A stretch of DNA of 64,000 nucleotides from Diploptera punctata (lineage: Eukaryota > Arthropoda > Insecta > Blattodea > Blaberidae). This document shows positions 16,882 to 54,177 of the stretch, piece by piece. Each line of letters opens with the position of its first letter. The first letter of the stretch is position 1. The DNA lies in contig JASPKZ010010239.1 in the NCBI GenBank assembly GCA_030220185.1, positions 700,001 to 764,000 of the forward strand, in the 5' to 3' direction. Below the pieces are notes generated by a model that was not told the DNA's origin, made no database searches, and saw only the letters and a list, made by a program, of their open reading frames with translations. The translations under genes and the position numbers were made by a program.

Positions 16882-17110
16882 CTTTGTTGTTAAAATAATT
16901 CAAACATAGTAGGCCTTTCGGGACTAGTCACATCCTCAGCAGAAGATTGTTAGTTACTCTCCACCTACTATTCAGGTACTGACTGGTTTGTGAGGATCTT
17001 GTAAATATGGTTCTCGTACTGGATGCATTCTCGTTTAAAATGAGCTAATTGTTGTCAACTTATATGAGTTATCTATGTAATTTTGTGAGTGTGTTTATTA
17101 TACCGTATAT
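16882..17110 (-). mobile_element. Penelope-like element fragment
   Basis: The minus-strand translation shows, with stops, a NHIYKILTNQSVPE-type end and SSAEDVTSPERPT. These match the C-terminal tail of the Penelope-like copies at 27395-27600 (NPLYKILTNN) and 53985-54190 (NPLYKIFTNKSV, STDDGTSPEKPT). It carries a hammerhead-like core at 16910-16939. It is a dead 5'-truncated piece. Confidence 0.6.
16910..16939 (-). ncRNA. Hammerhead ribozyme motif (Penelope-type)
   Basis: On the minus strand: CTGAGGA (box 1, one change from CTGATGA), stem II TGTGACTAGTCCC, GAAA, then GGCC and TA. The four bases after GAAA are self-complementary, fitting the very short stem III of Penelope hammerheads. Cleavage would fall after the A of CUA. 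The changed base in box 1 probably inactivates it. Confidence 0.55.
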
Positions 17111-17230
17111 GAATCCATCCATTATTTTATGTTTGGTGTAATTTGATTTACCTTCTGCATATTTAACCCTTAAATTGGCAAAACACTGACTGACTGTTTT
17201 GTGGCAATGACTAGCATTGCCCAGTGTGCC

Positions 17231-17520
17231 GCTTTTTGGGAACCAGTTGAGGTCCCTTGGCGGCCAAACACCATTGTGTTTATTCAGTAGGGGTTTTGTT
17301 CCTTAGCCTTGCTGTCTCGCTGCTTATGTGTTCATTGCCGTAGCAGGTATGGATGATATGAAACATGAGTTCACTAGATTTGTCAGGAACACAAACCTTT
17401 CCATAGGTGTCGACAGACCACTCAGCAGAGGCTGAATGTTATGGAAAAGCTGTTGTCCTGATCCGTCATTGGTATAGCAGCCACAGACCCTGGCTGACAT
17501 GGGACAGTGCCTGTAGTAGG
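17231..17520 (+). pseudogene. Possible jockey-like 5' end, inverted
   Basis: CGCTTTTTGGGAACC and CTTGGCGGCCA near 17231-17268 resemble, on the opposite strand, CGCTTTTTTCCGGG and CCTGGCGGCCA upstream of the ORF1 at 19168. A following frame from an ATG (MDDMKHEFTRFVRNTNL) looks like a distant version of the ORF1 start (QKFERYVENQKF). If correct, two related 5' ends face outwards. The similarity is short. Confidence 0.3.
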
Positions 17521-17540
17521 TTTAACTGTGATGCCAGAAT

Positions 17541-19168
17541 TTACCATAGAACTATATGAGACTGTAGGATTAACAGATTTTGATGTGAAAGTTCGAGGTT
17601 GGGACGCCGGGGTTGTTGGACTTTGGTTGGTTTTCTTTTTTCATAAATTTCTTTTGCTTTCTTATAGGCTTCACAACCCCGGTAGGAAGCGGGATGTCCC
17701 TTTTCCCCACAGTTCGCGCACTTCAGCAGGCTCTTGTCCGTGAGTGCCTCGGTTCTCACCGGACACTCACGATGACTATGAGTACCAGCGCAAATTACGC
17801 AAGATGGGGTCAAGGAAACCCCATGAAAGTATGGTTGAACTTCTGGCATCTGAAGCACTGCTTCATGCCAGCTCTAGGTCTGTATGGTTCCACAGCCACC
17901 ACTGTCAAACAGAGGCGGTTTAAGTTATATATTTCCCTACCAGCATCATTGTTCTGAAGTTCCAGGATGTATAATGGTAAGGGAGTATAAACTTCTCCTT
18001 CTTTTTTGGTGATTTGCTTTACCGATATTATTGGATATTCTAGTTCTTTAAGTTCTTCCTTGACTTCATCAGCAGTGATGCTGGAGGGAAGCCTCTTTAG
18101 AACAGCCCTCAGAGGCAGATCTTTTTTGAGTTGAAATGTATAAAATTCTTTCTTTGCATTTTTGAAGTACTCTTTGAGTAGCTGAAAGTCTGCCTCCGAG
18201 GTAGCGTAGTATCTCAAACCGTCCTGGTTTTTACTACTTCACGTCTTTTTCGAATTTTTCTTTTAATTCCCGATTCATCCTGAAAAGGTCACCATGTCCA
18301 ATCACCGTTATGGGTGGTGGGCGTGGTTCCCTTTTCGGTTGCGGCAATTACTTGAGGCTCCCTGGACGGTTGGCTACTACGCCTGGTAGTTGCTGTAGTT
18401 TGCTTGTCCCATGACGATCCAAGTTGAGGAGCCTGAGGGTCGACAGTGTCCATTGGTTCCGGTAATTCGGATAAAATTGAAAATTTATTTTGCATTGGCA
18501 CAGTCGACACCTCATTTTGTCGTGATGTGACCTTAGTTGCCTTATTTGTGGTTGGTTTCACTTTATTTGAAACTGTATTCATGTTAACTTTAGAATTATT
18601 TTGGGATGGTTTCTCTTTATTTGAAACTGTATTCATGTTAACTTTTGAATTATTTTGGGATGGTTTCTCTTTATTTGAAACTGTATTCATGTTGTCATTT
18701 GTACTATTTTGGGATGGTTTCTCTTTCTCATGTGTTTTAATCTTTTTAGGTTCAGGTACATATTCTGTATTCGCTATAGGAATTTGATCCGCACCTTTGA
18801 AAAAACAGGATACAGGAAGTTCTATAAGTATTGTTTTCAATTCATGAAGCTTTTTCCAAAATAATCTTGGTTAGATTTCATATTGAGCTTAATCTCACTT
18901 AATCTTTTTAGGCAATCATGTGTAACATCACGAGCAAAATCGGACTGACCGAAATCTGGGAATGCGCTTATGTAATTGATAACTATAACGATGGAACCAC
19001 GCACCTCTCTAGCTACTTCTAGTAATTTTGATTCAGATGGAAATTTTTGATTTTCTACGTATCTCTCAAATTTTTGAGCGCAGTTTCCCAAAGTTTCGTA
19101 GGCCGAGGGCTCCTCATACTCAAGGTCCATAGCCTGCTCGGCACTCACGTATTTAGTGAAGCAGCCAT
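17541..19168 (-). pseudogene. Jockey-like LINE ORF1 (PRE/C2HC, zinc knuckles), broken
   Basis: Nucleic-acid-binding gag-like protein of a jockey-clade retrotransposon, in several frames. The likely start is the ATG at 19168 (CCATGGCT, then MAASLNT), with a shift into the frame open from 19148 (EYEEPSAYETLGNCAQKFER). Next comes a linker with three repeats of an EKPSQNNSK-VNMNTVSNK unit (about 18560-18720). Then a PRE/RRM-like domain (FYTFQLKKDLPLRAVLKRLP, ITADEVKEELKELEYP, PLYILEL) leads into CFRCQKFNHT. In the last frame CVICAGTHSHREC and CANCGEKGHPASYRGC are further zinc knuckles. ORF2 is absent. At least three frameshifts make it inactive. Confidence 0.75.
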
Positions 19169-20599
19169 GGTAAGACTGTTCAGCACTAATTACTTATTAC
19201 TACACTAGCACTTGGCTTGATTGAACTGAAATAAAAACTGAACACAATAAGCCAGCAGATAAGGCTTAACAAAGCACTCGCAGTTAATAGAGTTGCTTTG
19301 CAGGAACCAAACACCACTGTATAAACACAACACTGAAAAAATTTCACTGAAAAACACTGAATACTCTTAAGTGAGTGTGGCCGCCAGGCCCCACCCGGAA
19401 AAAAGCGACATGCTGCACAACACTATTCACCAATTCACTATTTTCAGCCAGCAATCAGAATTCTTGTGTTAGTTATTTGAATGTGGCGGACCGCAGTGAA
19501 AACGGAATCTTGTGTAACTGTTATTAGAGAAACTTCGAATAGAGGGGAAACTGAGTACAGTGACATCTAAAAAATTTCGTTCGTTTACGATGAACTACAA
19601 TGAGCAAACTACAATGGTAGCGCTTTTTCGTAGTAACAGAATATGTAACTAAATAAAACAAATGCAAGGCACATGGCGTCGTTCACGGCGTGTTTAACGG
19701 TGTTCACTCGGGATTATGGGAAGTTAGCCATTTTGTAAATTTAAATTTTTAACTGCTATCCTTTCGTTCCATGTAGACGGTACTGTAAATTATCGAAAGT
19801 TAAAATCATTACTTAGATTTTATTTTACTCTAATTTGTAAGTAAATTCAAGCTTGTTTACATTTTTAATGTGAATCTATTTTCAAAGATAAACCTACTAG
19901 AAGTGATAAAATTCTAAGATTTGTTAGGTTAGGAAGAGTGATGTTAGTGTACAGCCATTTCTAATAAACATTTTAAAAGTGTGACTTTATAATGGACAGA
20001 TGTACGACATGGCTAAGGTTATTTAATAAATATTGTATAAAATATGTACGTGAGAATAAGGGGGTAGGTCAATTGTACATATTTATTAAAAGAGCTCATA
20101 ATGCACATTTTAAAATTTTAATAAACGAAAATAAATTAACATATTTTATTTATTTCCATCCTTCCTTTCTGTTAAAATTAAAGAAAATCTGTAGGTCTGA
20201 GAGACTGGGTATACATAATTCCACAATTTAAGATTAATTAATACGTTATTTATTCCTATAAAAGTTAAATTCCATGATTATTCACCAGATGGCGTTATAT
20301 AATTATAATTCATAATTTTACCACCAGGCGGTGCTGAATTTCATATTAGTACCAAAAAAAGAACCGAAAAAATTTAGGTGTCGTTAGTTGTATTACACTA
20401 GCGCCACCTGTGGCATGTACGCGCAACTTGTCTACTTTCTTCTCTGGTACTCTGTGATTATTAGGTATATTGTATAATTAGACACACATTTATGTGGGTT
20501 ATTTTTGTTCGTTTTCTTCTGATTTATTGAAAATATTATATTAATTAAACCAACTGATGTCTCCAAAAGGATACATTACGCATTTAAGGGTTAAAGTCT

Positions 20600-21945: not shown

Positions 21946-22189
21946 ACTGTGAAGTTCAGTGACTGTAAATTAGAGTGAAGTAACTTAGGAACTTCAAGCA
22001 CAGTTACAAACTTCCTGCAATTTATATTGAGCAACTACTTCCATGGTAAGATGTATGTTTCTCTTCGTGGGTTTTGTGTAAGTTGTGTAGGGTAGAGTTC
22101 GCTATGATAATCATAAAACCGGTTTTGTCGGATTTTAAATGTATTTTATTTTTTATTTACATTGTGGAAGTGATCATATAAAACTATTA

Positions 22190-22665
22190 TTTTACCAGTT
22201 ATATTATATGGATGCAAAACATGGACTCTTACTTTAAGGGAGGAAAGGAGATTACGTGTATTTGAGAATAAAGCTCTTAGGAAAATTTTTGGACAAAAGG
22301 CAGATGAACAGACAGGTGAATGCAGAAGACTTTTCATAACAGTGAATTACATGGTCTCTATAGGAAGCCAAAATTAACAAGGACAGTTAAGTCTCGTAGA
22401 CTACGATGGGTAGAACATGTGGCACTAATGGGGAATGAAAGATGTGCATGGAAACTTCTTGTAGGAAAAACAGAGGGAAAACGCCCAGTTGGTAGACCAA
22501 GAATGAGGTGGGAGAATAATATTAACTATGATTTGAGGGAAGTAGATTATACAGGGGATGATTGGAAAACATTAACTCAGGATAGGGATGTATCAAGAGC
22601 TTATGTCCGCGCGGCCATGAACCTACGGGTTTGATAGTGCCAGTGAGTTAGTTATTGTGGGAGTG
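22190..22665 (+). pseudogene. LINE tail, abundant GRPRMRWEN family, copy 1
   Basis: The translated pieces in order are YGCKTWTLTLREERRLRVFE, NKALRKIFGQKADEQTGE, SELHGLYRKPKLTRTVKSR, RRLRWVEHVALMGNERCAWK, GKRPVGRPRMRWENN and NYDLREVDYTGDDWKTLTQD, ending RAYVRAAMNLRV. This is the C-terminus and 3' end of a LINE ORF2 with one frameshift near 22320. The same tail occurs at 23549, 39700, 45325, 45779, 60955 and 63002, so this is one of the dominant families here. Confidence 0.75.
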
Positions 22666-23548: not shown

Positions 23549-23790
23549 ATTGTTAACTAACTCACTGACACTATCGAACCCGGAAGTTCAGGGTCGCGCG
23601 GATATATACTCCTCATACATATTTCCCTATCCTGAGGTATTGTTTTTCAATCATCCCATTCATAATTCATCTCCCTCAAATCATGATTAAACTTATTCCC
23701 CCACCTTACTCTTGGTCTACCTATTGGCACTTTTCTTCTGATTTTCCTATTAATTCCCATGCCCCTCTATCATTCCCTAATTGTGCTACA
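23549..23790 (-). pseudogene. LINE tail, GRPRMRWEN family, copy 2
   Basis: The minus strand contains, with damage, the same end as 22450-22640: a GTTCGATAGTGTCAGTGAGT terminus, ATTCATCTCCCTCAAATCAT and GGTCTACCTATTGGCAC on the plus strand. It is a shorter and more diverged copy. Confidence 0.65.
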
Positions 23791-23944
23791 TGTAAAGTAA
23801 TAAATATTGCCTACACTCTTAACGTTAGTCAGTTGTTTATAATGAACGCAAATATTTCCAACAAATATATTATTATTTTACTATTATTTATTATTTTGAA
23901 AACACCATAGAGCAAAAAATAAAAATAAATAATGTACAGCGCAC

Positions 23945-25791: not shown

Positions 25792-27119
25792 TAATAACGG
25801 AATTAAGTTAAAGGACTTTGAATCATTGAATTAATTAAAAATAACCAACACATTTTTCAGAAATAAAGAAATCCATAAAATTACATGGAGTTCCAGAGGT
25901 TATATACCTTATATTATAGACTATATTTTAACAAAGGAGAAATTGTCATCCTTGTAAGAGATACTACAGTTTTTAGAGGATATGACGTTCCATCAGATCA
26001 CTTTTTACTAATTTCAAAATAAATATAACACAGAAATGACATTAGACCTTCCAAAGGCTTACACGACAAGAAGAAACATTTCGAGTACAATTATTGGAAG
26101 ACACTAGGTATGAAATTTCTATATCAGAGAATATTAGAACAAAACTTGATAATGTCACCTTGTAGCCATGACATTAATGAAGAATGGCAAAATATAAAAG
26201 ACCATTACTACAAGCAGCAACTGAGACCTTAGGCAAGAGAAAGAAAACAAAAGACATTTAATAATATTGAGGATGAAAACTAATGAGTTGATTGAAACTA
26301 AAAACAAACCTTACTTGAAAAATCTCTCAACACATTCTGAAACGCATAAAATAAAATACAAAAGATTGGCCGCAATGGTGAAGAGAGAAACAAGAATAAT
26401 TAATAGATAATCTTGGGAAACATATGTAAATAAAATTGAACATAATATCCATAGACCACAGCTGTCTGCATACAAAATTAATAAAGACCGAAACAAAATA
26501 GCGAACGATAATTTAAAACTTAATCCAATATCTCAACATAAATGGCTAGAATATTACACAAGATTTTGAAGTAAGTCAACTGATAATGAAACCTTTGAAG
26601 AAAACATCCCAAACTTAATAGCAGATTCTGTAGATTTGATCACAATTGAACAACTGGAAACAACTATAAAATAATTGAAATCTCGAAAAGCACCAGGTTC
26701 AAATGGAATTCATAATGAATTATTTAAATATGCACCTAAAACGTTTTTACGTAAAATTTTCAACTTACTAAATGTTGAACTGAGAACAGTGATTGTGATT
26801 CCTATACACAAGATAGGAGAGAACTAACCCAGATAATAATTATAGAGGTATAAGTCTGCTGAACACCGGATACAAAATATATGCAAAAATCTTAGCAAGA
26901 AGATTGGGCGTGATTACAGAAACTTTACTATTAGAAGAACAAAATGGATTTAGAAAAGGATGATCTTGCGTGATTTGTATATTCTCTAAGCATTGAAAAA
27001 CACAATGAATTTAATATACTTACATACATACCATTTATTGACTTTAAAAAGGCATATTTATAATATAAAAATAGAATTCCTGAGATCTCAGTCTTCCTCA
27101 ACTTTGGATTTGGTGTGTG

Positions 27120-27151
27120 GAGTACTGTCGAAGCATATGCTTCATCTTCGG
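27120..27151 (-). ncRNA. Hammerhead-like motif, left arm of Penelope insertion
   Basis: On the minus strand: CCGAAGA (box 1), a perfect stem II (GAAGCATATGCTTC), GACA in place of GAAA, then GTAC and TC. The altered box 2 should abolish cleavage. It is the inverted partner of 27566-27597. Confidence 0.5.
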
Positions 27152-27565
27152 TTGTAACTCGGTAGTGGTTGTTTGTAAGAATTTTGTAGAGCGGGTTGAC
27201 GTCACTGGGTGAGTTCTCATTCAGCAGGTGAGTGTTTTTGGTTTCTTTTACTATTTAGATTTCTTCGAGAATGTTAATTTTGAGTCTGTTGTTTTCTCTA
27301 TGGATGATGGATGTAGTCACTCTAACTCTATGGTGACAACACTCTATCCATCATCCACAGAGAAAACAACAGACTCAAAATTAACATTCTCGAAGAACAC
27401 TCTATCGATCATCCATAGAGAAAACAACAGACTCAAAATTAACATTCTCGAAGAAATCGAAATACTAAAAGAAACCAAAAACACTCACCTGCTGAATGAG
27501 AACTCACCCAGCGACGTCAATCCGTTGTACAAAATTCTCACGAATAACCAGTACCGAGTTACAAG

Positions 27566-27597
27566 CTAAAGATGAAGAATATGCTTCGAAAGTACTC
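27566..27597 (+). ncRNA. Hammerhead-like motif, right arm of Penelope insertion
   Basis: CTAAAGA (box 1 variant), stem II GAAGAATATGCTTC, GAAA, palindromic GTAC, then TC as the cleavage dinucleotide. The TAA inside box 1 is also the stop codon of the preceding frame (ITSTEL is in another frame; the coding end reads NNQYRVTS). Confidence 0.5.
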
Positions 27598-28344
27598 CAC
27601 ACCCCACATCCAAAGTTGAGGAAGATTGAGATCTCAGGTATTCTATTTTTATATTATAAATATTACATAGTAACCTCAACGGTGTTTCGTCATGAATTTT
27701 AAAAGTATCTATTAAAAAGACATTCGACTCGATAGACAGAAAAAAAAATATAGGATTATTATGGAAAGAAAACGAATGCCATTACATCTAATATCACCAA
27801 TTAAAATGATAATACTATAAAAGTAAATGTCGGCAATGGAGTTATCTAAAGATAACAGAAACATCACCCAAGGTGTCAGACAAGGAAGTCCTGTATCTTC
27901 GATCCTATTTAATTTATACCTAGATAATATTATTAGAATCTGGCTCGAGAAGCTACAACAAAACAAGTATTTCAAAAATATTATATTCAACATCTATTTG
28001 CCGATTACCAACTAATTATTTCAAATTCAGAAGACAGTTTACAAATAGCAGTTTATACATTATATCGTATATCAAGATAATACAATTTGGAAATTTCCAC
28101 GGATTTGGTTTTGTTCGAACAGATCACATCAGAACGAAAATAATTATAAACATTACGAAATTAGAACAAGTTAGGTGAATCTATTCGTCAACAACTAATT
28201 ATCGCAAATATATTATAAATTATTGACGAATACCAGCCAATGCATTTACAACACATGCAACCATCAAGAATTCCAACACAATCATGTAGATACAGACGAC
28301 AGTAAACGAACAGGTCGAATCCTTGAAGCTGGTGACGATGATGA

Positions 28345-28980: not shown

Positions 28981-28989
28981 ATATATATA

Positions 28990-29030
<41 letters not shown>
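28980..29030. repeat. (TA)n microsatellite
   Basis: TA array with one TG interruption, abutting the tail of SINE A copy 6. Confidence 0.9.
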
Positions 29031-29032
<2 letters not shown>

Positions 29033-29387
29033 ATCCATAGTAATTTTGCCCGAAGGCAGGTCCTTCACTACAATCATAGCATTTTCATGCTATGCTTGCA
29101 ACTTTACTAGGGAATTGTAGGTGTGGTAGCTTCTCGTTGCTTTCCACACCGATGAAGGATGATGATAATGATGATGATGATAAGGATGATGATAATGATG
29201 ATGATGATAAGGATGATGATCATATGATTTCGGGGACCGTTTGGGCCTTAAAGTTGTCCTGACATTTGTCTTACAGGTGAGGAAAAACCCCAATAAAAAC
29301 CTCACCCAGAAAAATTGCCCCGACCGAGGATCGAACCTGGGCCCTCTGCGTGACAAGCTAGCACGCTACCCCGAGACACAGCGGTGG
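29031..29387 (-). mobile_element. SINE family A, copy 6
   Basis: Full-length copy with the tRNA-like head at the right, some mutations in it (CCCAGGTTCGATCC keeps the B box on the minus strand), and a GGATGG tail at the left. The ATGATG-rich segment is duplicated (two GATGATGATGATAAGGATG units). Confidence 0.88.
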
Positions 29388-29388
29388 G

Positions 29389-29389
<1 letters not shown>

Positions 29390-29418
<29 letters not shown>
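29390..29418. repeat. (TA)n microsatellite
   Basis: TA run beside the head of SINE A copy 6, so that this copy lies within a TA-rich target. Confidence 0.9.
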
Positions 29419-33665: not shown

Positions 33666-34739
33666 CACAATATTTATTCATTTATTAAAAAGGTATTGAG
33701 TAATTGGTGCATTCGGTTATCTCCACTTTTTTCTTAGAACATCTTGAATATGAAGTTCTCAGAAAAAAAAACTTAGTCAATATAAGTTATATAGGCTAAT
33801 AGAATAACACATTGTAAGATTACGACCGTAGGATTCTGTCTTCTTATTTCAGGTTTTCATGAGTGCGATTTAAAATTTAGAAATAATATGGGAAATACAC
33901 GATTGAACTGTACAAAACTCGCAGATTATAAACATTATAAACAAAACGATAACGTTAGTTATAGAAATTACTCTTAATCATTTAATATGAAATGAAAAGT
34001 TGATACAACTCTCTGATTCTTACTTTGCGATAATACACATACATTGATACTAACATAATTCAACTTTATGGACATCTCATTATATTCCAAGTTCATAAAT
34101 AAAAATCTGTACAAGGACAGCGTCGGCGTTTGTTATTCCCGGTTAACGCGGTCCGCTGTAGTCGCACGTTACAGTCAGTTTTATATTTCCTTTCATTCAA
34201 TGTTACGAGTAGTAAACAATGGATACTGTAATTTTAAGAACTGAACCTACACACGCTACCTCTGGACCCACTTGGCGCCGAGTACCAAGTAGAATGTCTT
34301 AATCGCTCTCTAGTTACAAGGGCTAACTGTTACATCGTAGGTTTTTTTGAGACGCCTTCCAATATCAGAGATCATTATCATCCCAGTTCAAAGCTGGAAC
34401 AACAAATTTCGTTTTAGGTATCTCTTATATCAAGAGTGAGAGGCTGTTCATATGTCGTTAATTTACCAAAGTGAATAAATTCATATTACTTCCTTTCCGG
34501 AAGAAGCTACAATCAGGTGTTTTTTACGCACTGAAAAATTTCATCTACCCCAACTAGGTTTAAAAATGTATCCCAGGATCCAAATTCGAGCATGATGAAC
34601 CATCGGTATCATCGGAATTCATAGAGGGTAAAAATGTATTAATAGTTAGAAATAGACCATGTTGATCAGACGTCAAGAGGTTTGAAGTTAATGGATTTAA
34701 GAAAATGTTTACAGTAATAATGAAAACCAAACACATCAA
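33666..34739. other. No recognisable gene
   Basis: No long frame. A possible decayed tRNA-like head lies around 34545-34610. Nothing else was recognised. Confidence 0.45.
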
Positions 34740-34990
34740 CACTTTTGAATTTCATATTAAAGCACCGTTGAGGTTATGTAATAAGACAAGGAATAAAGAC
34801 CTATTCAACGAGAACATACCCGCAGACATAAATCCGTTATACAACCTATACAACATCATCATTTCCAGTTAAAATGCTGAAGATGAAACATTGTTTTTGA
34901 AAGGCCTCCATATTGGAATAACTTGAAGAAGTTTAATAATTTAGTTGAGGACGACTGACTTACCAGGTACCAATTTTATAATTAACACTT
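34740..34990 (+). mobile_element. Penelope-like fragment
   Basis: The frame reads TRNKDLFNENIPADINPLYN, then NAEDETLFLKGLHIG and TTDLPGTNFII, matching 49150-49350 closely. On its left, 34742-34778 is the inverted terminal motif (ACTTTTGAATTTCATATTAA, CACCGTTGAGGTTATG). A partial inverted structure like that of 27056-27711 is thus present here. Confidence 0.65.
34877..34908 (+). ncRNA. Hammerhead-like motif (CTGAAGA type)
   Basis: CTGAAGA, stem II around AAACATTGTTT, GAAA, palindromic GGCC, then TC. Box 1 has A where canonical hammerheads have T. The same change occurs in several copies here, so it may be a family feature. Confidence 0.5.
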
Positions 34991-35137
34991 TAAGCAAACA
35001 CAATTAACAACATTTAAAAATATGTGAAAAATATGTGAGCCCACTATGAACTATTTCAAAATGAATTATAAAATTTGAAAAGTAGATTTCGTGGACCTCG
35101 TGATGAATTCAAGGGACAACTTATAATAGTTATATTC

Positions 35138-37736: not shown

Positions 37737-38018
37737 TCCATCCATCCATCCATCCATCCATAGTAATTCTGCCCGAGGGCAGGTCTTTCATTGCAATCAC
37801 AGCATTGTCATGCCATGCTTTGCAGTTTTACTAGGGAATTATAGGTGTGGTAGCTTCCCGTTGCTTTCCACACCGATGAAGGATTATTTTCCTGACATAT
37901 GTCTTACAGGTGATGAAAAAACCCGAAAAAACCTCATCCAGGAGCCTGTCCGACCGGGTATCAAACCCGGGCCCGCTGCGTGACAAGGCAGCACGCTACC
38001 TTGAGACCACAGCGGTGG
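37737..38018 (-). mobile_element. SINE family A, copy 7 (internal deletion)
   Basis: Head and tail are intact (B box GGGTTTGATACCC, long (GGAT)n tail at 37737-37761), but the ATGATG-rich segment and the CGTTTGGGCC part are missing: GATGAAGGATT joins TTTTCCTGACAT directly. Confidence 0.88.
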
Positions 38019-38720
38019 AATATATACATATAACATAAAATATTCCTTAACTTCGATTATGTCAGTTGTGTTAGATATCTAAAACAAGTTTCATAAAACT
38101 TTACAAATTGTCCTTAAACTTTGTACTTTCCGGCAGAAAATTTACTAAAATAGAATTACTTTTAACGATTAAATGAACTATGCACTGCCTGGTTGAAAAA
38201 TTCACGAGATAATTCCGAACGTCCAATGTGGCTATTTCTGATCACTTAAACATTAGAATTGTAAATTATTTACCGCAAATACACTGTTTCATGGTTACAG
38301 AGTCGTAAAAAATGACATGAAACCAAGCGTCAACTGTCAAAGTAATGTTTCCGAAAACCCTATTGACACATTTGCTACATCTCACTCTTCATGTTTAGAA
38401 AAGATGGCTGGATGTCTAATTAATATTTATGTAAGTGTATTTTTGTTCCAGTAATCACCCCCTTATTACACATTGTCATGTAAGATGTTATGTAAAGTGT
38501 TTGTGTAAAGCAGACAGCTTCATCCCTTTCTATTGATATCTAATACTGGTACAATGTGCATGGCAAAATCAAAATGTTACCTTATATAAAGGAATGTGAA
38601 AATAAGGTCAATTCTATGGAAATTGACGTAATAATTGTAACACAATTAAATAACATTTACATTTTTTAAGCTTCATATAGTAGGACACTACTTTTTCTCT
38701 TCAAAACGTTTATTTGCAAG
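38019..38720. other. No recognisable gene
   Basis: AT-rich, no frame or known repeat recognised. Confidence 0.5.
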
Positions 38721-39074: not shown

Positions 39075-40176
39075 GTACTGTACGTCAACTATACGTAGAC
39101 TTCAAAAAGGCATAGGATTCATTTAAGAGGGAGAAGTTATATAGTATCCAGCTGGAGTTCGAATTCCTAAAAAGTTTGACTTATACGAATGTGTCTAAAA
39201 GGCACAATGAGTAGGGTACAGTTTTCGGATACTTTTGAAATCCAGAATAGGTTGAAGCAACGAGATTCACTATCTCCTCTATTATTTAATTTTGTACTAG
39301 AGCATGCCATCAAATCTTTAGAGGATGAAGAAGGCTTACAACTCAATGGTATAAATAAGCTGTTAGTTTATGCTGATGATGTGGTACTATTGGGCGGCAG
39401 CTAGGAGATACTAAGGACCAATATGCACACACTATTGAGTAACACTAAAAAATTGGGACCGGAAGTAAATACAAATATGTATGGTCACACATAGAAATAC
39501 AATATATAATGAAAATGGACAGCTAATGAAAAATGAGGGAAATTTTCAGGAGGTGGCTGAATTCAAATACCTAGGAATAATAATCACAAAAAATGAATGA
39601 GATGCACAAATAAATTAAATATAGGCTCAAATCTGGAAATGCGTGCTATTATGCATTACAGAGACTCTTGACGTCCCAATTCCTTTAAAAAACGTTAAAC
39701 AGAAAATATGTAAAACTATTAATCTACTAGTTATATTAAACGGGTGCGAAACATGGATTCTTACTTTAAGGGAGGAAAGGAGATTACGAGTATTTAAGAA
39801 TAAAGTTCTGAGGAAAATTTTTGGATCAAATAAAGATGATCAGACAGGGAATGAAGAAGACGTTGTAATAGTGAACTACATGATATTTATTGGAAGCTAG
39901 CTATAATAAGAAGAGTTAAGTCTCATAGACTGCGATGCGCAAGACATGTAGCACGAATGGGGAATGAAGAGGTGCATGGAGACTTCATGCAGGAAAACCA
40001 GGGGGAAAACGCTCAGTTGATAGACCGAGAATGAGGTGGGAGAATAACAGTAACTATGGTTTGAGGGACATGGATTATGCAGGGGATGATTGGAAAACAT
40101 TAACTCAGGATAGGGATGTATGGCGAGGTTAATTCCGTACGGCCATGAAGCTACGGGTTCGATAGTGTCAGTTAGT
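39075..40176 (+). pseudogene. LINE ORF2, RT palm to 3' end, GRPRMRWEN family, copy 3
   Basis: The longest copy of this family. It begins in the RT palm (VDFKKA-DS), then FEIQNRLKQRDSLSPLLFNF, LLVYADDVVLLGG (the YADD catalytic site), EVAEFKYLG, NGCETWILTLREERRLRVF, RKIFGSNKDDQTGNEED, and after a shift RVKSHRLRCARHVARMGNE, with a frame-broken GRPRMRWEN region. It ends at ACGGGTTCGATAGTG. It links the short tails elsewhere to an RT with the YADD box. It carries many stops. Confidence 0.75.
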
Positions 40177-40802
40177 TAGATATCGGTAAGTGAGATAACT
40201 GTAGAACAGCATGTTTTACAGAGAAGCGTAAAATAATATCTATGAAGTTTTCAATTTTATTTCAAGAAGTAATTGTTAATGTAGTATACATAGGAGTTAC
40301 AAAATGTATGTTTTGAGTTTTGTGTTCTAAAATGTTTAGTCATACAAAATAAAGATAATAATTGATGTAACAACTAACACTTCTGTCTGATGTAAGAGAT
40401 TTAATTAAAATAGATAGCTAGTTATTTGTTACTTATGAGTTTGTTCATATTCTACAATATTTGTGATGTAGGCACTTGAAAATATTTTTAATAGTCTCTA
40501 TATTACTTTGGGAAGCAGGATTGAAGGTTCAATTTTCATGCGTCATGTTAAATTTTAATTCAAATTCACCATAACCTTAGATATAATAGTTAACAAGCAA
40601 CTTTCATCAAATTGGTGAATGATAGTTACCATATTATAAGGTTTTGTAGACTTTGGTAAATTATTAAATATTTTAAAAACATGTATTTTGAATTTATTTG
40701 GGTTACTTTGTATCCATAAAGCTGAAGTGTAATATCAAGACAACATTTACGGTTTGATATTCAGGAAAATTGGTTTTAAGATTAAATTTGTTAATATTTA
40801 CT
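40177..40802. other. No recognisable gene
   Basis: AT-rich. No frame over 60 codons, no repeat recognised. Confidence 0.5.
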
Positions 40803-42839: not shown

Positions 42840-43375
42840 ATTTAGTTTTCTCGAGTAATTTACAATCACAATAAAATATAACAAACTAGAAAAGAATAAA
42901 TTAAACAAAACAGTCTAAGTTGGCGCCATAGTTGTACCAGAATATCTTATTTAGACTGGCGCATTTGCTAAACTGAATTGTTAGTTATTTTATACCGTTA
43001 AATAGCACGAGTGAGTGAGGAGGTTGACGGGAAGTCTGACGCGTCATAGAGGGAGTAACTAGAGGAGTTGAACTTGGCGGAACATAAACGAAATCGCAAT
43101 CGAATTTGGAACAGGATTCAAAATGTAATACTGTTGTATTTACCAAGTATTATGTGAGATAAATTATTTTATTTTAACTATAATTCATATACTCAATTTT
43201 GTAATTTCATATGCAATTTTATTTGGTATTCTTGTCCTCATTACAACCCACAAATATAGTAGGAAGAAAATAAATATCTGAAGATATATGTATCCAGAAA
43301 ATGAATGAATTGCTTGCAAATATAATAACATTAATACAATTCATGGTAAAACTCAGTTAAGGTATTAGTCTGTTC
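42840..43375. other. No recognisable gene
   Basis: AT-rich sequence with no assigned repeat. Confidence 0.45.
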
Positions 43376-43377
43376 AC

Positions 43378-43545
43378 CTTGTATGTCTGTCTCCTAAATT
43401 TTTAAAATGCTAATTCATTAAACACACTGAGGGTCATTGAAAATATACACACCTTGTACTGATGATGGGATTAGTCACGAAAGGCCTACAGTGAATTAAC
43501 ATTTTAAAATTTGAAGAGATGGACCTACAAGATAAACAATTATAT
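43378..43545 (+). mobile_element. Short Penelope-like hairpin copy
   Basis: The left side (GTCTGTCTCCTAAATTTTTA, AAATGCTAATTCATT) is the inverted counterpart of the right side (GTGAATTAACATTTTAAAAT, GAGATGGACCTACAAGA). Between them lies a hammerhead core at 43459-43488. It corresponds to the same terminal part as 53262-53395, in miniature. Confidence 0.6.
43459..43488 (+). ncRNA. Hammerhead ribozyme motif (CTGATGA type)
   Basis: Canonical CTGATGA, stem II TGGGATTAGTCAC (one mismatch), GAAA, palindromic GGCC, then TA and CAG. All conserved core bases of boxes 1 and 2 are intact. The four-base stem III could pair only weakly alone and better between two molecules. Confidence 0.65.
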
Positions 43546-44149
43546 AATTTTATATTATAATTTTAATTTGTTGCAAACATAAAGTAGGCCTACTATATTT
43601 CCGAGACTGCGCATGCCCACCTCTCTAAATGAGGGTTCAACTAATTGAATTCTAGCTGTCATCTATATAATGTGTTTGTAAAATGAAAAACTCTAAGAAA
43701 ATATATGCTAAATATTTGCGGATGATATAATTAAGATATTTTAATTTATTTTATTAAATAACATGTTGCCAATTGAATAATAATTTTGTTATCACGTATT
43801 TGAACCCTTGTATGAAAGGTCTGTCACGCAGGAAATACGTAAAGCGAATTTCTCAGCAAGTCGAATTCATGGCCCGAATTTGATGTTTTACAGAATACAT
43901 TTTTTTTTGCTAAATTGGAGAAACTAAATTTCTGATGTCAGCTTATTTAAAAGTATCGGACCGTGAAAGATATATGGCCCAAATAGAGATAATGGAGCCT
44001 GGTGAATTAGAACTAACCGGGAACTACAAGCATAGGAACAATAGCACATATTAAATTCAGACGAGTCGATTGATGGAATATATATATAGGCCCTAGAATA
44101 GGCACAAACCGAGCCCCCAATGTAGTACTGTTTGCAAAACGTAACTCTA
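43546..44149. other. No recognisable gene
   Basis: AT-rich sequence. No frame or family recognised. Confidence 0.45.
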
Positions 44150-45303: not shown

Positions 45304-45324
45304 ATAATATATATATATATATAT

Positions 45325-45750
45325 ACTTTAAGGGAGGAAAGGAGATTACGAGTATTTGAGAATAAAGTTCTTAGGAAAATGTTTGGACCAAAGAGAGATG
45401 AACAGACAGGTGAATGGAGAAGACTACATAACAATGAACTACTTGGTCTTATAGGAAGCCAGATATAATAAGAACAGTTAAGTCTCGTAGACTGCGATGG
45501 GCAGGACATGTTGCGCGTATGGGGAATGAACGACTTGCATGGAAGCTTCTTCTAGGGAAGCCAGAGGGAAAACGCCCAGTTGATAGACCAAGAATGAGAT
45601 GGGAGAATAACATAAACTATGATTTGATGGAAGTAGATTATACAGGGAATGATTGGAAAGCATTAGCTCAAGATAGGGATGTATAGAGAGCATATGTCCG
45701 CGCGGCCATGAACCTACGGGTTCGATATTGCCAGTGAGTAAGTAAGTATT
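45325..45750 (+). pseudogene. LINE tail, GRPRMRWEN family, copy 4
   Basis: Starts in TLREERRLRVFENKVLRKMF and runs through GPKRDEQTGEWRRLHNNELL, TVKSRRLRWAGHVARMGNER, GKPEGKRPVDRPRMRWENN and AYVRAAMNLRVRYCQ. It is one of the best preserved tails, 5'-truncated next to a TA run, with one shift near 45450. It lies back to back with copy 5. Confidence 0.78.
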
Positions 45751-45778
45751 GCTTTATAATAATTAAAAAACTAGCAGG

Positions 45779-46385
45779 TGCTATCGAACCCGCAGATTCA
45801 TGACAGCATAAAAGTTTTCCAGTTGTTTCCTGTATAATTCATTCCCTCATGTCATGATTAATTTATTCTCCCACCTCCTTCTTGCCCTATCTAATTGGCG
45901 TTTTCGCTCTGGCTTTTCTGAAAGAGTTTCCATGCCCCTCTTTCATTTACCGTTCTACATCACGTCCTGTCCATCTCTTCTACGAGACTTAACTGTGCTA
46001 TTTACATCTGGTTTCTCATAAATATATACAGAGTGCAGCATAAGTCAGTTAACTGGAATTGCAAATATATTATTTTCAGTAGCTTACAACATCTATACAA
46101 AAAACAACTACCAATATTGCTTCCTAGTTAGCAAATTACCTCAAGCAGTAGTGTTTGACATTATATTCTGAAGGTCCCGTATTCAAACACCAGTTTCAAC
46201 AAATCTGATTTTTTCCCCTTGCAAACATGTACAGTGGTTAACTTACTTGTGCCGCACCCTGTTTAGTTCTTTCTTACAAAGTCTTCTTTCGTTTATTTCT
46301 TCGACTTTATCTAGTCCAAATATGTCTTAACTTTATTCTCAAATACTAGTAATCTTTTTCTCTACGCTTAAAGTAAGAATCCCCG
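45779..46385 (-). pseudogene. LINE tail, GRPRMRWEN family, copy 5, carrying a MITE
   Basis: Minus-strand copy of the same tail (start at TTAAGCGTAGAGAAAAAGAT, end at CGGGTTCGATAGCACC), more diverged than copy 4. It is split by a 233-bp insertion at 46029-46261 with terminal inverted repeats. Confidence 0.7.
46029..46261. mobile_element. MITE with terminal inverted repeats
   Basis: The left end is CAGAGTGCAGCATAAGTCAG then TTAACT. The right end, reverse complemented, is CAGGGTGCGGCACAAGTAAG then TTAACC. About 22 of 26 positions agree. TA precedes the left end, as for Tc1/mariner-derived MITEs; at the right the flank is TTTA. It is 233 bp with no coding capacity, inserted in LINE tail copy 5. 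Confidence 0.7.
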
Positions 46386-46447
46386 TATTTGTTGTATAAT
46401 AGTATTATAAAACAATAATAAATAATCAATTGAGTTGGTTAACATGT

Positions 46448-46480
46448 CTGAAGAAGGTATAGTGTACCGAAACAGCTGTC
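46448..46480 (+). ncRNA. Hammerhead-like motif with CAGCTG stem III
   Basis: CTGAAGA, stem II (GGTA pairing with TACC around TAGTG), GAAA, palindromic CAGCTG, then TC. NUH is GUC, the preferred cleavage triplet. No Penelope coding tail could be read just upstream, so the host element is uncertain. Confidence 0.5.
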
Positions 46481-46544
46481 ACTGAATTATATAATAAATA
46501 TGAAAATCAAATAAAACTACGTTTTATTTTTATTTAATTAATAA

Positions 46545-46602: not shown

Positions 46603-47490
46603 TGCATGGATCTCCAAAAACTGACCAAATAGAAGGAAAATAATTATCATAGGAGTGAGAACAATATTATATTAGTTCTATAGAATATTTTTAGACTTAT
46701 TTTTATTAGGTTACTTTCACCTATTAAGAACAGAGGTGGTTCCACTGATAAAAGTATCCTTAACTTATAATTATATAATGAAAGCATAAAAATAACATAT
46801 AAAGATTTATCTTTGATAATAAAATAATATAAATTTAAAAATAATGTAATTATTAGTGTTATTATAAATTAAACACTTTGCAGCATTCTATTTTTCTTTA
46901 ATAAAAATATATTACAAGCACTAAGGACATGAACCCCTATATGCAGCACCGCGTGCTTTCAATGGGGAGAATATATACATTACGTCACATTTCCCCTCAA
47001 GTCCTCATCCACATGCTATATCTTCCGGCAAACACAAGGGAATTACGCTCGGAGTCGAGTTGCTCACCAGTTGATGAGGGCTGTTGTAGGATCTATTTGG
47101 AGTAGTTATTTTGCACTATTACTACCAAGACACTGCGTTAATAGGACCATATTATAGCCTTATAGAAAACTTCCGACCTGTAAAACTTTTTAGATTGCTC
47201 ATTAACACAATGTATTGCTAGTATTTGCGCAGAAACACTTTTCTAAATGATATACCTACAAATTAATTTAAATAGTTGTTACATTTTATTGTCCAAGTTT
47301 CTGCATCATATCATTCCACTGTACGAAGTAATTCTGTTCATTTCGTGAAAGCTCTTAATAATCAAGAAGTCTGTGTTCACAATGCTATTGATTTTTTCAT
47401 GACTAATACCAACATATAAAACTTTAATAGTTCATCTTCCATCTACTGTAAATTTTATTTTCATACTTGCGTTATTAAGTGAGTGTATAT
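46602..47490. other. No recognisable gene
   Basis: AT-rich, no frame over 60 codons. The 46980-47060 part looks less AT-rich, but no feature was recognised in it. Confidence 0.45.
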
Positions 47491-47496
47491 ATATGA

Positions 47497-47813
47497 CCAC
47501 CACTGTGGTCTCGAGGTAGCGTGCTGTCTTATCACGCAGCGGGCCCGGGTTCGATGCCCAGTCGGTACAGGCTTCTGGGTGAGGTTTTTCCGAGGTTTTT
47601 CCTCACCTGTAAGACAAATGTCAGGATGTTAGGGCCCAACAGTCCCTGAAAATCATCCGGCCATCATCACCATCCTTATCATTATCATCATCATCATCCT
47701 TCACCGGTCTGGAAAGCAACGGGAAGCTAGCACACCTATAATTCCCTAGTAAAGCTGAAAAGCATAGCATTAAAAAGCTATGACTGCAGTGAAAGACCTG
47801 CCCTCGGGCAGAA
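47497..47813 (+). mobile_element. SINE family A, copy 8
   Basis: Complete plus-strand copy: CCACCACTGTGGTCTCGAGG, B box GGGTTCGATGCCC, GACAAATGTCAGG, CGGTCTGGAAAGCAACGGGA and CTGCCCTCGGGCAGAA. The tail has decayed to AAAATAAA. A possible tRNA-like remnant on the minus strand (GGTTCAAATCTCG, around 47830-47885) lies just downstream. Confidence 0.88.
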
Positions 47814-47912: not shown

Positions 47913-48055
47913 ACACACACACAGGGTGTAACTAAATTCCCATTACAGACTTTGAGGTGTTGGTTACGGATAGCACTGGAACTCATGTCCGGAAACATAC
48001 AGTTTTCCCACTACACGCAAAATAGCATAACACACTGTTTTTTCTCGTGAGGCAG

Positions 48056-48650
48056 AGCAGAGATGAGAGGAAGAAGAGAGAGAGAGTAAGGGAGAGAAGA
48101 GAGAGAGAGCGGAGAAGAGAGAGGAGAGAGAGGAAGAGAGAGATGAGAGGAAGAGAGAGAGATGAAGAGAGAGAGTATGGAAAGAGATAGAGAGAGGAAG
48201 TGAGAGAGAGGAAGAGAGAGGTGGGAATAAAGAGGTTGAAGAAGAGTAGGAGAAAAAAAGAGAGAGGAAGAAAGAGAGAGAAAGAAAGGAGAGAGAAAAG
48301 AGAGAGAGAAAGAAAGAGAGAGAGAAAGGAGAGGAGAGACAAGGAAGGAAAGAGAAAGGAAAGAAAAAAGAAGAAAAGAAAGAAAAAGAGAAGGAGAGAA
48401 AGGACGAGAGAACAGTAGACAAGAACGAGAGAGAAAGAACGAAAAGGAACGAAAGCGAAGAGAGAGACAAGGAGGGGGAGATGCAAGAGAAAGAAGGATG
48501 ACAAGATAGAGAGAAAGAAAACAAAAGAGAAGAGAGAATATTGAGAGAGGAGAAGAGGAGAGATCTCTTCTCTGCTACTCTCTATCTCTCTCTCTCTACT
48601 CTCTGCTCTATCCTCTCTCTCTCTCTCTCTCGTCTCTCTCTCTCTGACGC
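48056..48650. repeat. Long purine (GA) tract with strand switch
   Basis: About 500 bp of almost pure purine on the plus strand (48056-48560), mainly GAGA with GAAA and GGA variants. It changes at about 48562-48570 (GAGATCTC) to about 80 bp of CT on the same strand. Long apparent frames of serine, leucine and phenylalanine or of arginine, glutamate and lysine are artefacts of this composition. Confidence 0.95.
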
Positions 48651-48905: not shown

Positions 48906-49080
48906 GCCAAAAATGCGGAAGATTTGAATGTGCGTTCTGGTATTTTGCGTGCCTGTGTCGGGAAAACGGTACATTTTACGACATTAACTCCTATGAGATA
49001 TTACATATAAAATTGGTACCTGACAAGTCAATCGCCCTCAACTTAATTAAAAAACTTAATTAAGTAAAATCGACAATACC

Positions 49081-49420
49081 ATGTCAGTACTACACAGAGA
49101 GTATAACAACAACAGGATCAGCATCCTTGAAGATATAGAGATTCTAAAAGAAGCATAAAATACAGACCTACTCAATGAAAACACACCCACAGACATGAAC
49201 CCGTTGTACAACTTATACAACAACATCAGTACCAGTTATAATGCAGAAGATGAAACATTATTTTTGAAAGATCTCCATATTCGAACTACTTAATGAAGTT
49301 TATTAATTTAGTTGAGGACGACTGACTTACCAGGTACCAATTTTATATTTGATATCTTACTACATAATCTCAACGGTGCTTTAATATGAATTTCAAAAGT
49401 GTTCATTAGTTCGTATGCTA
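49081..49420 (+). mobile_element. Penelope-like fragment
   Basis: The translation reads EYNNNRISILEDIEILKEA, TDLLNENTPTDMNPLYNLYN, SYNAEDETLFLKDLHIRTT and LRTTDLPGTNFIF, then the terminal motif (TCTCAACGGTGCTTTAATAT, GAATTTCAAAAGTGTTCATT). It is the C-terminal tail region of a Penelope-like protein with one stop. It is a close relative of 34740-34990. Confidence 0.7.
49244..49275 (+). ncRNA. Hammerhead-like motif (GATC stem III)
   Basis: CAGAAGA (box 1 variant), stem II around AAACATTATTTTT, GAAA, palindromic GATC, then TC. It differs from 34877-34908 in the stem III sequence but keeps self-complementarity. Confidence 0.45.
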
Positions 49421-50817: not shown

Positions 50818-51512
50818 AATGGGATTTAAATTTAAACATGAAGAAAAACAAATTATTTATCAATTGGTGAACCAGAACAAAATTTAATTTTGGAGACTGG
50901 AGAAACAATAAAATCTTGTATTGAGATCACATATTTAGGAATTAAAATAAATAAAAATGAGAGTTATGAAGAGGAAATAAGAAATAGAAATAATAAAGGA
51001 AAATTTGCAATTGATTGTATCGATGGAATATTGTGGGATAAAAATATAAGTAATAAAAATAAAATGAATATATATCATACAATTGTTAAAAGCATCATTA
51101 CTTATGGAGCAGAACTCTGGCCATTAACAACAAAAACAAATAAGTACCTTTTGGCAACGGAAATGGATTTTATACGAAGGGCCCCAAGAATTTCAAGAAG
51201 AGAAAAAATTATAAACTCAGTTATAAGGGAGAAAATGAAGATTGAAGACACTATTTTAGATTATATTAAAACTCAGCAATTAAGATGGTTCAGACATGTC
51301 CAGCGAATGGAAGAGGATCGACTACCAACATCTGTTTTGGAATGGAAACCTGAGGGAAGACGAAGCAGAGGAAGGCCTAAAACCTCCTGGAGTCAGGGAA
51401 TATGTTTATATATAAAGGAGAAACATCTACAACCAGGAGATTGGATGGACCGACAAAATTGGCTATTAGGAATCGGACGATGTCAAAGACATTAATCAAC
51501 CGATGATCTATC
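50818..51512 (+). pseudogene. LINE ORF2 C-terminal part, long open frame
   Basis: An open frame of about 200 codons (50890-51495) beginning ETIKSCIEITYLGIKINKNE. It continues NRNNKGKFAIDCIDGILWDK, IYHTIVKSIITYGAELWPL, EMDFIRRAPRISRREKI, RWFRHVQRMEEDRLPTSVLE, RRSRGRPKTSWSQG and GDWMDRQNWLLGIGR. This is the part after the RT catalytic site, up to the natural end. It looks relatively young (no stop), but the endonuclease and palm are missing. ATT arrays flank it on both sides. Confidence 0.75.
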
Positions 51513-51514
51513 TA

Positions 51515-51516
51515 TA

Positions 51517-51555
<39 letters not shown>
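51515..51555. repeat. (ATT)n microsatellite
   Basis: ATT array directly after the LINE tail, in the position of its 3' tail. Confidence 0.95.
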
Positions 51556-52250: not shown

Positions 52251-52329
52251 ATTAAAAAAGGCTACACAAGTTTGTATCGGATAAAGAATGAATGTATAAG
52301 AACGCTGTTAATTTTATATCCATTTAACG

Positions 52330-52545
52330 AAAAAAATGAAAGCATATAGAGATAAATGATTTAGACATATAGAAAGAATGATTGTAACAAGATTACCAAA
52401 ATCAGCATTTAACGACAAGCCAAGAGGATCAAGGAATGTACGAAGGCCAGTGGGAAGATGGACAGAACAACAGTTGGACGGAACAGGCAATTTGCCTATC
52501 CCGTGAAGTGAAGAAGATGGAAAAGAACTGTTATTATTATTTTCA
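52330..52545 (+). pseudogene. Third LINE tail fragment in row
   Basis: The plus strand reads RHIERMIVTRLPKSAFNDKP, RGSRNVRRPVGRWTEQQLDG, then a short frame and ATTATTATTTTC. This is the RM-RLPK-NDKPRG-RN-GRP-GRW tail of another LINE family. Confidence 0.5.
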
Positions 52546-52679
52546 TTACTACCAGTGTTCGCCAAGTGGCCGAAATTCGACCATAAATAATTTATATTAT
52601 GTTAGATGTTGATATTTTTAAATTGTATTAGACTATAATCATAAGAATACAGAGTATAAATTTATGTTGAGGTGTAACT

Positions 52680-52860
52680 GATTATGGAGGCGATAGCATT
52701 CTAAATTAACACCCAGCATCGTGAGGAATTTCGTTAACTACAATAAGTAACGGCTCCACATTGAGAAAACCGACTATAACGGCTGATGGACCCGACATGC
52801 TGGCCACACTACACTGGCAGGATGATCGTCTATCTCTGTGATTAACACATGTACTTATAT
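52680..52860 (+). mobile_element. SINE family D, copy 4
   Basis: CAGCATCGTGAGGAATTTCG, CACATTGAGAAAACCGACTA, ACTGGCAGGATGATCGTC and CTGTGATTAACACATGT match the middle and 3' block of family D. The head is decayed (GATTATGGAGGCGATAGC). Confidence 0.6.
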
Positions 52861-53260
52861 TACTTCCCTATAGTTTAAATGGGAGCTTGGCGCTGGATTT
52901 AATGCCTTGTAGTTGAAAACGGCAGATAATTTTATGGACATGGAATTTGTACATCACATGTTTCTGTTGAGGAAATTTAACTCTTGCATCATGGATATTT
53001 TTGATAAACACTGGCATGCTGTTAAAATGGCAGAACTAATTGATTCCAATTTTTTTTTGTTAACACTAAAACTCGTCAATAACTACCGGTACTAAAAAAA
53101 TCAGTTTACAATCAGAAGAGAAAATGGTACTTAACTGTTTTGTCTATTGCCTATTTGTGTATAGATTTCCGTTTTTGTGGTCTCGGAGTAGTTCAACAAC
53201 ATTTATTAATAATCAAGTCTTTCGAATATAATTTCTTCAAAGTAAATATATAAACAAAGC
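52861..53260. other. No recognisable gene
   Basis: A 60-codon frame at 52913-53095 starts at a non-ATG codon and shows no known motif. Confidence 0.4.
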
Positions 53261-53342
53261 AATAATAGAACATACGAATAAAAACTATAAAATAGTCACC
53301 TGGTAGGTCTGCCTCCTCAACTGAAGATATTTTAATACTTTG

Positions 53343-53372
53343 TATGCCTTTCGGGACTAGTTCCATCATCAG
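53343..53372 (-). ncRNA. Hammerhead ribozyme motif, left arm
   Basis: On the minus strand: CTGATGA, stem II TGGAACTAGTCCC (one mismatch), GAAA, GGCA (a changed GGCC), then TA. Stem I could form between TTCTG before box 1 and CAAAG after the cleavage site. Confidence 0.6.
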
Positions 53373-54147
53373 CAGAACGAATTAGATCTGTATTTGTTGA
53401 CCCTTTTTGAAGCGCTGACTTATTTGTGAATATTTTGTATAGAGGATTGTATGTTCTCATTCAGATTCAGGTTGTTATCGATTTCACTTAGAATTGCAAT
53501 TTTCCTCCAGTATATTTATCCTCGTTGGTATGTTTTATATATGTAATATTGTGAGGGCGTTATCGATGTTATGCATATGGTGTCCTGCTTGAATTATATG
53601 TTTTGCGTAACTTGATTTTCCTCCATCATAAACAAAATTCCTAAAATGTTATTTAAATATAGTTAAAGATTCTGCTAGATTTTTCCCAATGTACAATGAG
53701 TCTGTACATGTTAATTTGTATACGCCTTTATTGTTGAAATCATTTTTTCTTCTTCGATATTATTATTTATTAAATTATGTAATATATTACCTGTTCTGTA
53801 TGCTATATTCATATTTATATTCTTGTCAAGATTTTTTTTAGCGTACTGGCTAATTTTAATGTTTCTATACCTGTGTATGTGTTGGATTCATTTCTTGTTA
53901 TTATTCAAGTTACGCAAAACATAATTCAAGCAGGACACCATATGCATTATACCGGTAACGCCCTCACATTATTACATAGAGAAAAACGAGGATAAATATA
54001 CTGGAGGAAATTGCAATTCAAGAAAAATCGACAACAAGCTGATTCTGAATGAGAACATACCCAGCTCACACAATCCTCTATACAAAATATTCACAAATAA
54101 GTCAGTGCTTCAACAAGGGTCAAAAAATACAGATTTAATTCGTTCTA

Positions 54148-54177
54148 CTGATGATGGGACTAGTCCCGAAAAGCCTA
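54148..54177 (+). ncRNA. Hammerhead ribozyme motif, right arm
   Basis: CTGATGA, perfect stem II TGGGACTAGTCCC, GAAA, AGCC (changed from GGCC), then TA and CAGAG. TTCTA before box 1 can pair partly with CAGAG. The core lies in frame in the C-terminal tail of the Penelope-like protein (STDDGTSPEKPTEY, then stop). Confidence 0.65.

Follow-up and report, generated by a model that had tools for sequence, protein, structure and literature searches.

The genome of the blattodean insect Diploptera punctata (contig JASPKZ010010239.1, positions 700,001 to 764,000 of the forward strand; the whole stretch of 64,000 nucleotides is called the window here, and positions are counted from its first letter) contains nine short sequences that resemble the catalytic core of the hammerhead ribozyme. 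We suggest that eight of them derive from hammerhead motifs of the minimal type I, dimer-type kind, left over in the pseudo-long terminal repeat (pseudo-LTR, or pLTR) ends of several Penelope-like retroelement families, and we put the probability of this reading, which is built on the comparison of sequences, at about 0.85. The copies are mostly decayed, and they add members to a published class without founding a new kind.

Nine hammerhead-like cores

An earlier note on this DNA, made from its letters alone, had reported nine strings in which box 1 (CTGANGA or a one-base variant) is followed by a self-complementary stem II, GAAA or a one-base variant, a short self-complementary block, and TA or TC. 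All nine are present in the window at the positions and on the strands reported there. They are listed below, the letters A to F denoting the loci in which they lie.

16910 to 16939, minus strand: core A; boxes intact (CTGAGGA, GAAA, TA), one stem II mismatch, palindrome AGGCCT
27120 to 27151, minus strand: core B left; two lesions (CCGAAGA, GACA), stem II fully paired, palindrome AGTACT
27566 to 27597, plus strand: core B right; one lesion (box 1 CTAAAGA), GAAA intact, palindrome AGTACT
34877 to 34908, plus strand: core C; the best preserved, boxes intact, palindrome AGGCCT
43459 to 43488, plus strand: core D; no box lesion, a single mismatch in stem II, poor stem I, palindrome AGGCCT
46448 to 46480, plus strand: orphan core; boxes intact, stem II of five pairs, 8-nt palindrome ACAGCTGT
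49244 to 49275, plus strand: core E; one lesion (box 1 CAGAAGA), GAAA intact, palindrome AGATCT
53343 to 53372, minus strand: core F left; no box lesion, a single mismatch in stem II, III block GGCA, one letter off the palindrome
54148 to 54177, plus strand: core F right; no box lesion, stem II without mismatch, III block AGCC, one letter off the palindrome

Box 1 is exact in six cores (16910, 34877, 43459, 46448, 53343 and 54148) and carries a single change in the other three, GAAA is exact in eight of the nine, 27120 having GACA, and every core ends in TA or TC, all of which agrees with the earlier description. Taken together, the catalytic boxes (CUGANGA, GAAA and UH) are intact in six of nine cores, the lesions being those of 27120, 27566 and 49244. 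The self-complementary block stood up in part: a perfect palindrome of 6–8 nt runs from A15.1 through U16.1 in seven cores and is missing from 53343 and 54148, in both of which the corresponding stretch is a single letter away from AGGCCT. Core 54148 has also lost the innermost pair of stem I. All nine have an extra base between A9 and stem II, which is A in 46448 and T in the other eight, and the spacing from box 1 to GAAA is 13 nt in A, D and F, 15 nt in B, C and E, and 14 nt in 46448.

Eight cores lie in insertions of Penelope-like anatomy

Comparison of the window with itself places eight of the cores in six loci, namely five insertions built as inverted pairs (B, C, D, E and F) and one fragment (A). 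All eight occupy one homologous site, between endonuclease-end sequence and a conserved 3' tail, and this holds also between the A/D/F cores and the B/C/E cores. In each of the five pairs the arms stand head to head, with the 3' tails pointing outward and the 5'-truncated ends meeting inside.

16892 to 17161, minus strand: locus A, a lone 5'-truncated arm; another repeat replaces its tail near 16880
27044 to 27723: locus B, head-to-head pair inside a remnant of a long interspersed nuclear element (LINE); left arm with short tail, right arm with long tail
27044 to 27055 and 27712 to 27723: target duplication of B, TTAAAAAGGCAT and TTAAAAAGACAT
34725 to 35002: locus C, head-to-head pair; left arm consisting of the long tail only, right arm with short tail
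34725 to 34735 and 34992 to 35002: duplication of C, AACCAAACACA and AAGCAAACACA
43308 to 43582: locus D, head-to-head pair; left arm with no core and a weakly matched long tail, right arm with short tail
43308 to 43325 and 43565 to 43582: duplication of D, 15 of 18 positions alike
48982 to 49417: locus E, head-to-head pair; left arm with short tail and no core, right arm with long tail
48982 to 48995 and 49404 to 49417: weak candidate duplication of E, 11 of 14 positions alike
53248 to 54303: locus F, head-to-head pair; left arm with short tail, right arm with long tail
53248 to 53257 and 54294 to 54303: duplication of F, ATATAAACAA

Each pair joins one short-tailed arm to one long-tailed arm, the short tail being on the left in B, E and F and on the right in C and D. 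The long tail extends to CTCAACGG...ATGAA, and its match in the left arm of D is weak (77.8% over 36 nt). Measured out to the target duplications, of which the edge of E is unsupported, the short tails reach about 64–85 nt past the predicted cut and the long tails 114–128 nt. A tail can be read in seven of the arms that carry a core (B-left, B-right, C-right, D-right, E-right, F-left and F-right), and in all seven it extends past the cut; arm A, its tail having been replaced, is excluded from this count.

The direct repeats at the outer edges agree at 11/12 positions in B, 10/11 in C, 15/18 in D, 11/14 in E and 10/10 in F. With search ranges that we picked around the insertion edges, the random place pairs that score equally number, out of 60, one for B, one for C, none for D, 18 for E and none for F. 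The duplication of E is therefore unsupported, and a target duplication of 10–18 bp is convincing in four of the five inverted-pair insertions. The edges of B are fixed independently, since this insertion splits a LINE reverse-transcriptase remnant (26930–27043 and 27712–27800, plus strand) at a FIDFKKA/FDSIDR-like motif recognized by eye; they are the clearest edges in the window. Two direct copies of 58 bp, 96% alike, lie at 27338–27455 inside the same insertion, near the junction of its arms.

An inverted-repeat search within each locus gave no pair in C and, in A, only a simple-repeat match. The pair in C was missed because its arms carry different parts of the element, and it was identified through its match to E. 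We also considered that the left arms of D and E might start exactly at the hammerhead cut, which is what a copy of cut RNA would look like. As judged by eye, homology begins about 0–9 nt past the cut in D and 9–11 nt past it in E, and other arms end elsewhere, so that such a start is unsupported. The high density of cores in 64 kb, on which the earlier note had remarked, can be traced to five inverted pairs, two of them (B and F) with a core in both arms, together with the fragment and the orphan, in a retroelement-rich window.

Pairing is kept while the letters change

Stem II and the III block keep their self-complementarity across the families while their letters change on both sides. The stretch from A15.1 to U16.1 takes the form of four different palindromes, AGGCCT in A, C and D, AGTACT in both B cores, AGATCT in E and the 8-nt palindrome listed above in 46448, and stem II is spelled GGGACTAGTCCC in F-right, GAAGCATATGCTTC in B-left, GAAACATTGTTTTT in C and GGTATAGTGTACC in 46448. 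C and E, which match at 83% over 223 nt, have III blocks that differ by two palindrome-preserving changes. Each core was scored at six pairs, the four outer ones of stem II and two of the III block, and the cells were compared with 20000 shuffles. In the nine cores 49 of 54 cells are paired and five of the six pairs show two-sided changes, which 0 of 20000 shuffles equal; in the eight cores that remain when 46448 is left out, 43 of 48 cells are paired and four of six pairs show two-sided changes, equalled by 2 of 20000, and neither of these fractions is to be read as a probability, the register having been taken from the hammerhead model and the sequences being kin.

Coding context

As the earlier note had reported, endonuclease-end homology is found upstream of seven of the nine cores, weakly so for 16910, and the arm of 43459 is cut off close upstream of its core. 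Six cores (A, B left, C, E, F left and F right) are traversed, by eye, by the endonuclease-end frame, which is interrupted by stops in A and C. A GVYKLTC..LYIGKN-like stretch in F looks, by eye, GIY-YIG-like. No full-length Penelope open reading frame (ORF) was seen in the insertions of the window, and no telomerase-like reverse transcriptase in its arms, all of which are 5'-truncated.

This context raises the question of whether the cores are simply the conserved coding end of the ORF, an AEDE- or ADDG-like peptide whose resemblance to a hammerhead is accidental. In favour of this, six of the eight Penelope copies have the frame running across the core, and the first residues look alike by eye. 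However, coding alone fails to explain the cores, because self-complementarity is kept through two-sided changes in both stem II and III and the spacing differs by 1–2 nt: spacings of 13, 15 and 14 nt put GAAA in different codon phases, yet its letters are kept, and the peptides diverge after about four residues. We therefore consider a purely coding origin improbable.

The ATG within the core was examined as a possible ORF start. Its frame meets a stop no later than the 16th codon in B and the 6th in C and E, so in these families it is probably not the start. The long tails of B, C, E and F share an ATGAA...-type start that reads MNFKS- or MKFKS-like, near 27690 (plus strand), 34755 (minus), 49385 (plus) and 54277 (plus). 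It lies downstream of the core by about 100 nt and may be where the ORF really begins.

Retrozymes and chance

Retrozymes are small non-autonomous elements that carry type I hammerheads, and they are reported to be frequent in animals (PMC7229834). Such an origin, independent of Penelope-like elements, could suit 46448, which has no coding flank. For the set as a whole it is very unlikely, given that 0 of 46 tandem-repeat rows in the window cover a core, that endonuclease-end sequence stands upstream of seven cores and that eight have Penelope-like tail or arm structure.

The intact cores exceed chance. In a search that required three or more pairs in stem II and one or both of two pairs in the III block, the window holds five exact-box cores with stem II, whereas 25 dinucleotide shuffles average 0.04 and never exceed 1. 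With up to one mismatch overall there are eight matches, one of them (18041) outside the nine noted cores, against a mean of 1.36 and a maximum of 3. The pattern took a 4-nt III block only, so that 46448, with its 6-nt III block, could not be found by it. When one mismatch per box is allowed, 22 rows are found against a shuffle mean of 12.04 and a maximum of 17, and they consist of the eight Penelope cores and 14 others. Because these 14 sit near the shuffle mean, a match to the laxest pattern means little by itself, and the damaged cores are credible mainly because they are homologous to intact ones. As the cores share ancestry, they amount to few independent groups, namely A/D/F, B/C/E and 46448. 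Chance matches of a loose pattern in AT-rich DNA, an idea that draws on the shuffle mean of 12.04 and on an Rfam search that finds nothing, are hardly credible for the Penelope cores in view of the count of 5 against 0.04, the one homologous place shared by eight cores and the two-sided stem changes; chance is a possible source of 46448, the description of which was fitted afterwards.

The orphan core

The earlier note recognized no coding flank around 46448, and no Penelope flank was identified there. The core sits between an older repeat that ends at about 46431 and a TAA array that starts at 46539. Its full description (exact boxes, at least four stem II pairs and a perfect 6-nt block), fitted after the site had been seen, occurs twice in 584 Mb of order-2 Markov sequence, which corresponds to 0.0002 per 64 kb; without the palindrome requirement, 0.029 are expected per 64 kb. 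Core 46448 is probably an orphan hammerhead.

A dispersed repeat of about 400–500 bp is present in both orientations in the window (22176–22655, 23554–23793, 39687–40183, 45324–46022, 60894–61393 and 62989–63387), and a diverged piece of this family ends just upstream of the orphan core.

Covariance searches and points against a hammerhead origin

Several results weigh against the view that these cores are hammerheads. Rfam release 15, searched with the whole window, returned no hammerhead family either at the gathering score or with E allowed to reach 10, and none was returned for the three stretches 34850–34935, 54115–54210 and 46420–46505. Two covariance models were built here, R1 from cores A, D, F-left and F-right, and R2 from both B cores, C and E. 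With E allowed to reach 10, R1 gave 26 rows; beside its four members there are 22 further rows, among which the best is 34877 at 15.7 bits and E 0.17, with 46448 at E 3.3. R2 gave 19 rows, its four members and 15 others; these 15 include no A, D, F or 46448 core, and the best of them (40279, E 0.12) is not a core. The covariance search that had been proposed as a check thus failed with Rfam, and R1 and R2 gave no clear recognition across families; motifs this short hold little information, and no published Penelope hammerhead served as a positive control. Support for the cores therefore comes from comparative anatomy.

Pairing is also less persuasive within single families and in stem I, which is convincing at 34877 only. 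In A/D/F alone 68.8% of cells are paired, no better than the 70.4% in shuffles. Stem I as a whole has 17 of 36 cells paired, again no better than shuffles, and p for stem I is above 0.05 in eight of the nine cores, all except 34877, where 3 + 7 pairs with a 4-nt bulge give p 0.002 against shuffles and 0.0115 against random places in the window. In B/C/E alone one pair shows a two-sided change, and 44 of 500 shuffles pair an equal number of cells. Finally, searches of Pfam, PDB sequences and a protein database with the broken Penelope coding pieces returned nothing significant, the only rows being sub-threshold ones to TEN_TERT (E 0.066) and SF3A3 (E 0.13) in one Pfam/PDB search and to a nickel regulator (E 0.58) in another.

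A model for the insertions

If the eight cores are remnants of Penelope hammerheads, the motif would fold in the element RNA with stem III formed between two copies, and could then cut after UH. The element protein would cut the target DNA, reverse transcription would start downstream of the motif, at either of two internal sites, and priming from both DNA ends would leave the inverted pair. Since the tails of all seven readable core-bearing arms pass the cut, the template RNA was presumably uncut at that motif. Nothing in the window decides between priming from both ends and self-priming on an antisense template.

It is also conceivable, as a long shot, that the motif has been kept less for cutting than as a site of RNA dimerization. 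The self-complementary block of 6–8 nt (AGGCCU, AGUACU, AGAUCU or ACAGCUGU) would then join two element RNAs, and the two ends of the broken target would each use one of them as template. If true, this would account for five head-to-head pairs with two tail lengths, copied from uncut RNA. The window offers a compact natural data set of five inverted-arm insertions, in each of which a short tail is matched by a long one, the tails extending beyond the predicted cut.

Other repeats and frames in the window

12022 to 15258, minus strand: LINE in which a 234-aa ORF1-like frame lies upstream of a 780-aa endonuclease/reverse-transcriptase frame, both on this strand
2114 to 2443, 8924 to 9286, 15817 to 16440, 28984 to 29408, 37739 to 38032 and 47486 to 47813: dispersed repeat of about 300–400 bp
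48054 to 48645: long AG/CT-rich imperfect repeat
50842 to 51495, plus strand: 217-aa open frame with the look, by eye, of a LINE C-terminus

The best match of the LINE ORF at 12022–14364 is 70%, with 54–55% to Periplaneta americana over part of its length and 41% to Mythimna loreyi, and relatives carry PF00078 and PF14529. Some copies of the 300–400 bp repeat stand beside TA arrays, and one copy replaces the tail of Penelope arm A. Open frames of 187–291 aa and sub-threshold matches to microRNA families in Rfam at 48054–48645 are most likely a low-complexity artefact. Part of the frame at 50842–51495 recurs on the opposite strand at 9536–9801 with 90% identity. A tRNA scan of the window found none.

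Comparison with known hammerheads and Penelope elements

Cervera and De la Pena are said to have described minimal type I hammerheads of Penelope-like elements in 2014 and to have proposed that they act as dimers. The premise of the earlier note, that hammerheads are established in Penelope-like elements, is supported by PMC6155905 and PMC11167929. According to PMC6155905, all available Penelope-like sequences show hammerheads, which sit in the pseudo-LTR and are usually minimal, without helix III; PMC7229834 calls them rare minimal type I variants and reports a coral in which type I motifs, minimal or canonical, number more than 6000. The window cores are like these minimal motifs in having no looped helix III and in their pseudo-LTR site, and a comparison of layout shows no categorical difference. 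With Rfam Hammerhead_1 (RF00163) and other hammerhead families they have the catalytic boxes in common, although Rfam returned no hammerhead match for the window.

A closer parallel is PAc, a Poseidon element of Anolis carolinensis, in which G8 lies just ahead of the start codon and stem II is where the ORF begins (PMC11167929), so that we infer the same A9-U-G arrangement as in the window cores. PAc and the window cores are alike in an ATG right after G8, in two tail lengths and in an insertion copied beyond the cut; unlike PAc, the frame from the core ATG closes early in B, C and E. Reverse transcription of PAc starts 111–118 bp into the ORF, and the cut lies 26 bp into it (PMC11167929); by our arithmetic the start is then 85–92 nt past the cut, as compared with about 64–85 nt for the short and 114–128 nt for the long tails in the window. 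The same study explains the tail by two reverse-transcription start sites, reports that both target strands are cleaved and extended, and finds that the hammerhead cuts only when protein is present and, in vitro, that insertion needs no cleavage (PMC11167929). The tails in the window agree, in a genome, with this in vitro report of cleavage-independent insertion.

The arrangement of the arms also has a precedent. Penelope families of the rotifer Adineta vaga show, according to PMC3846280, adjacent inverted pLTRs with target duplications of 8–10 bp, the head-to-head form being the commonest inverted arrangement and a tail of about 31 bp being optional on one inverted pLTR, and self-priming on an antisense template is offered there as an alternative origin of the inverted pairs. 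The duplications in the window, at 10–18 bp as scored, differ from these, and the account of the rotifer families makes no mention of hammerheads. In the window, the inverted pair with a short tail on one arm and a long tail on the other is the build of five of six loci, and four of these five have a convincing duplication; so far as PMC3846280 describes the rotifer families, the window pairs share with them inverted head-to-head pLTRs, a tail on one arm and short target duplications.

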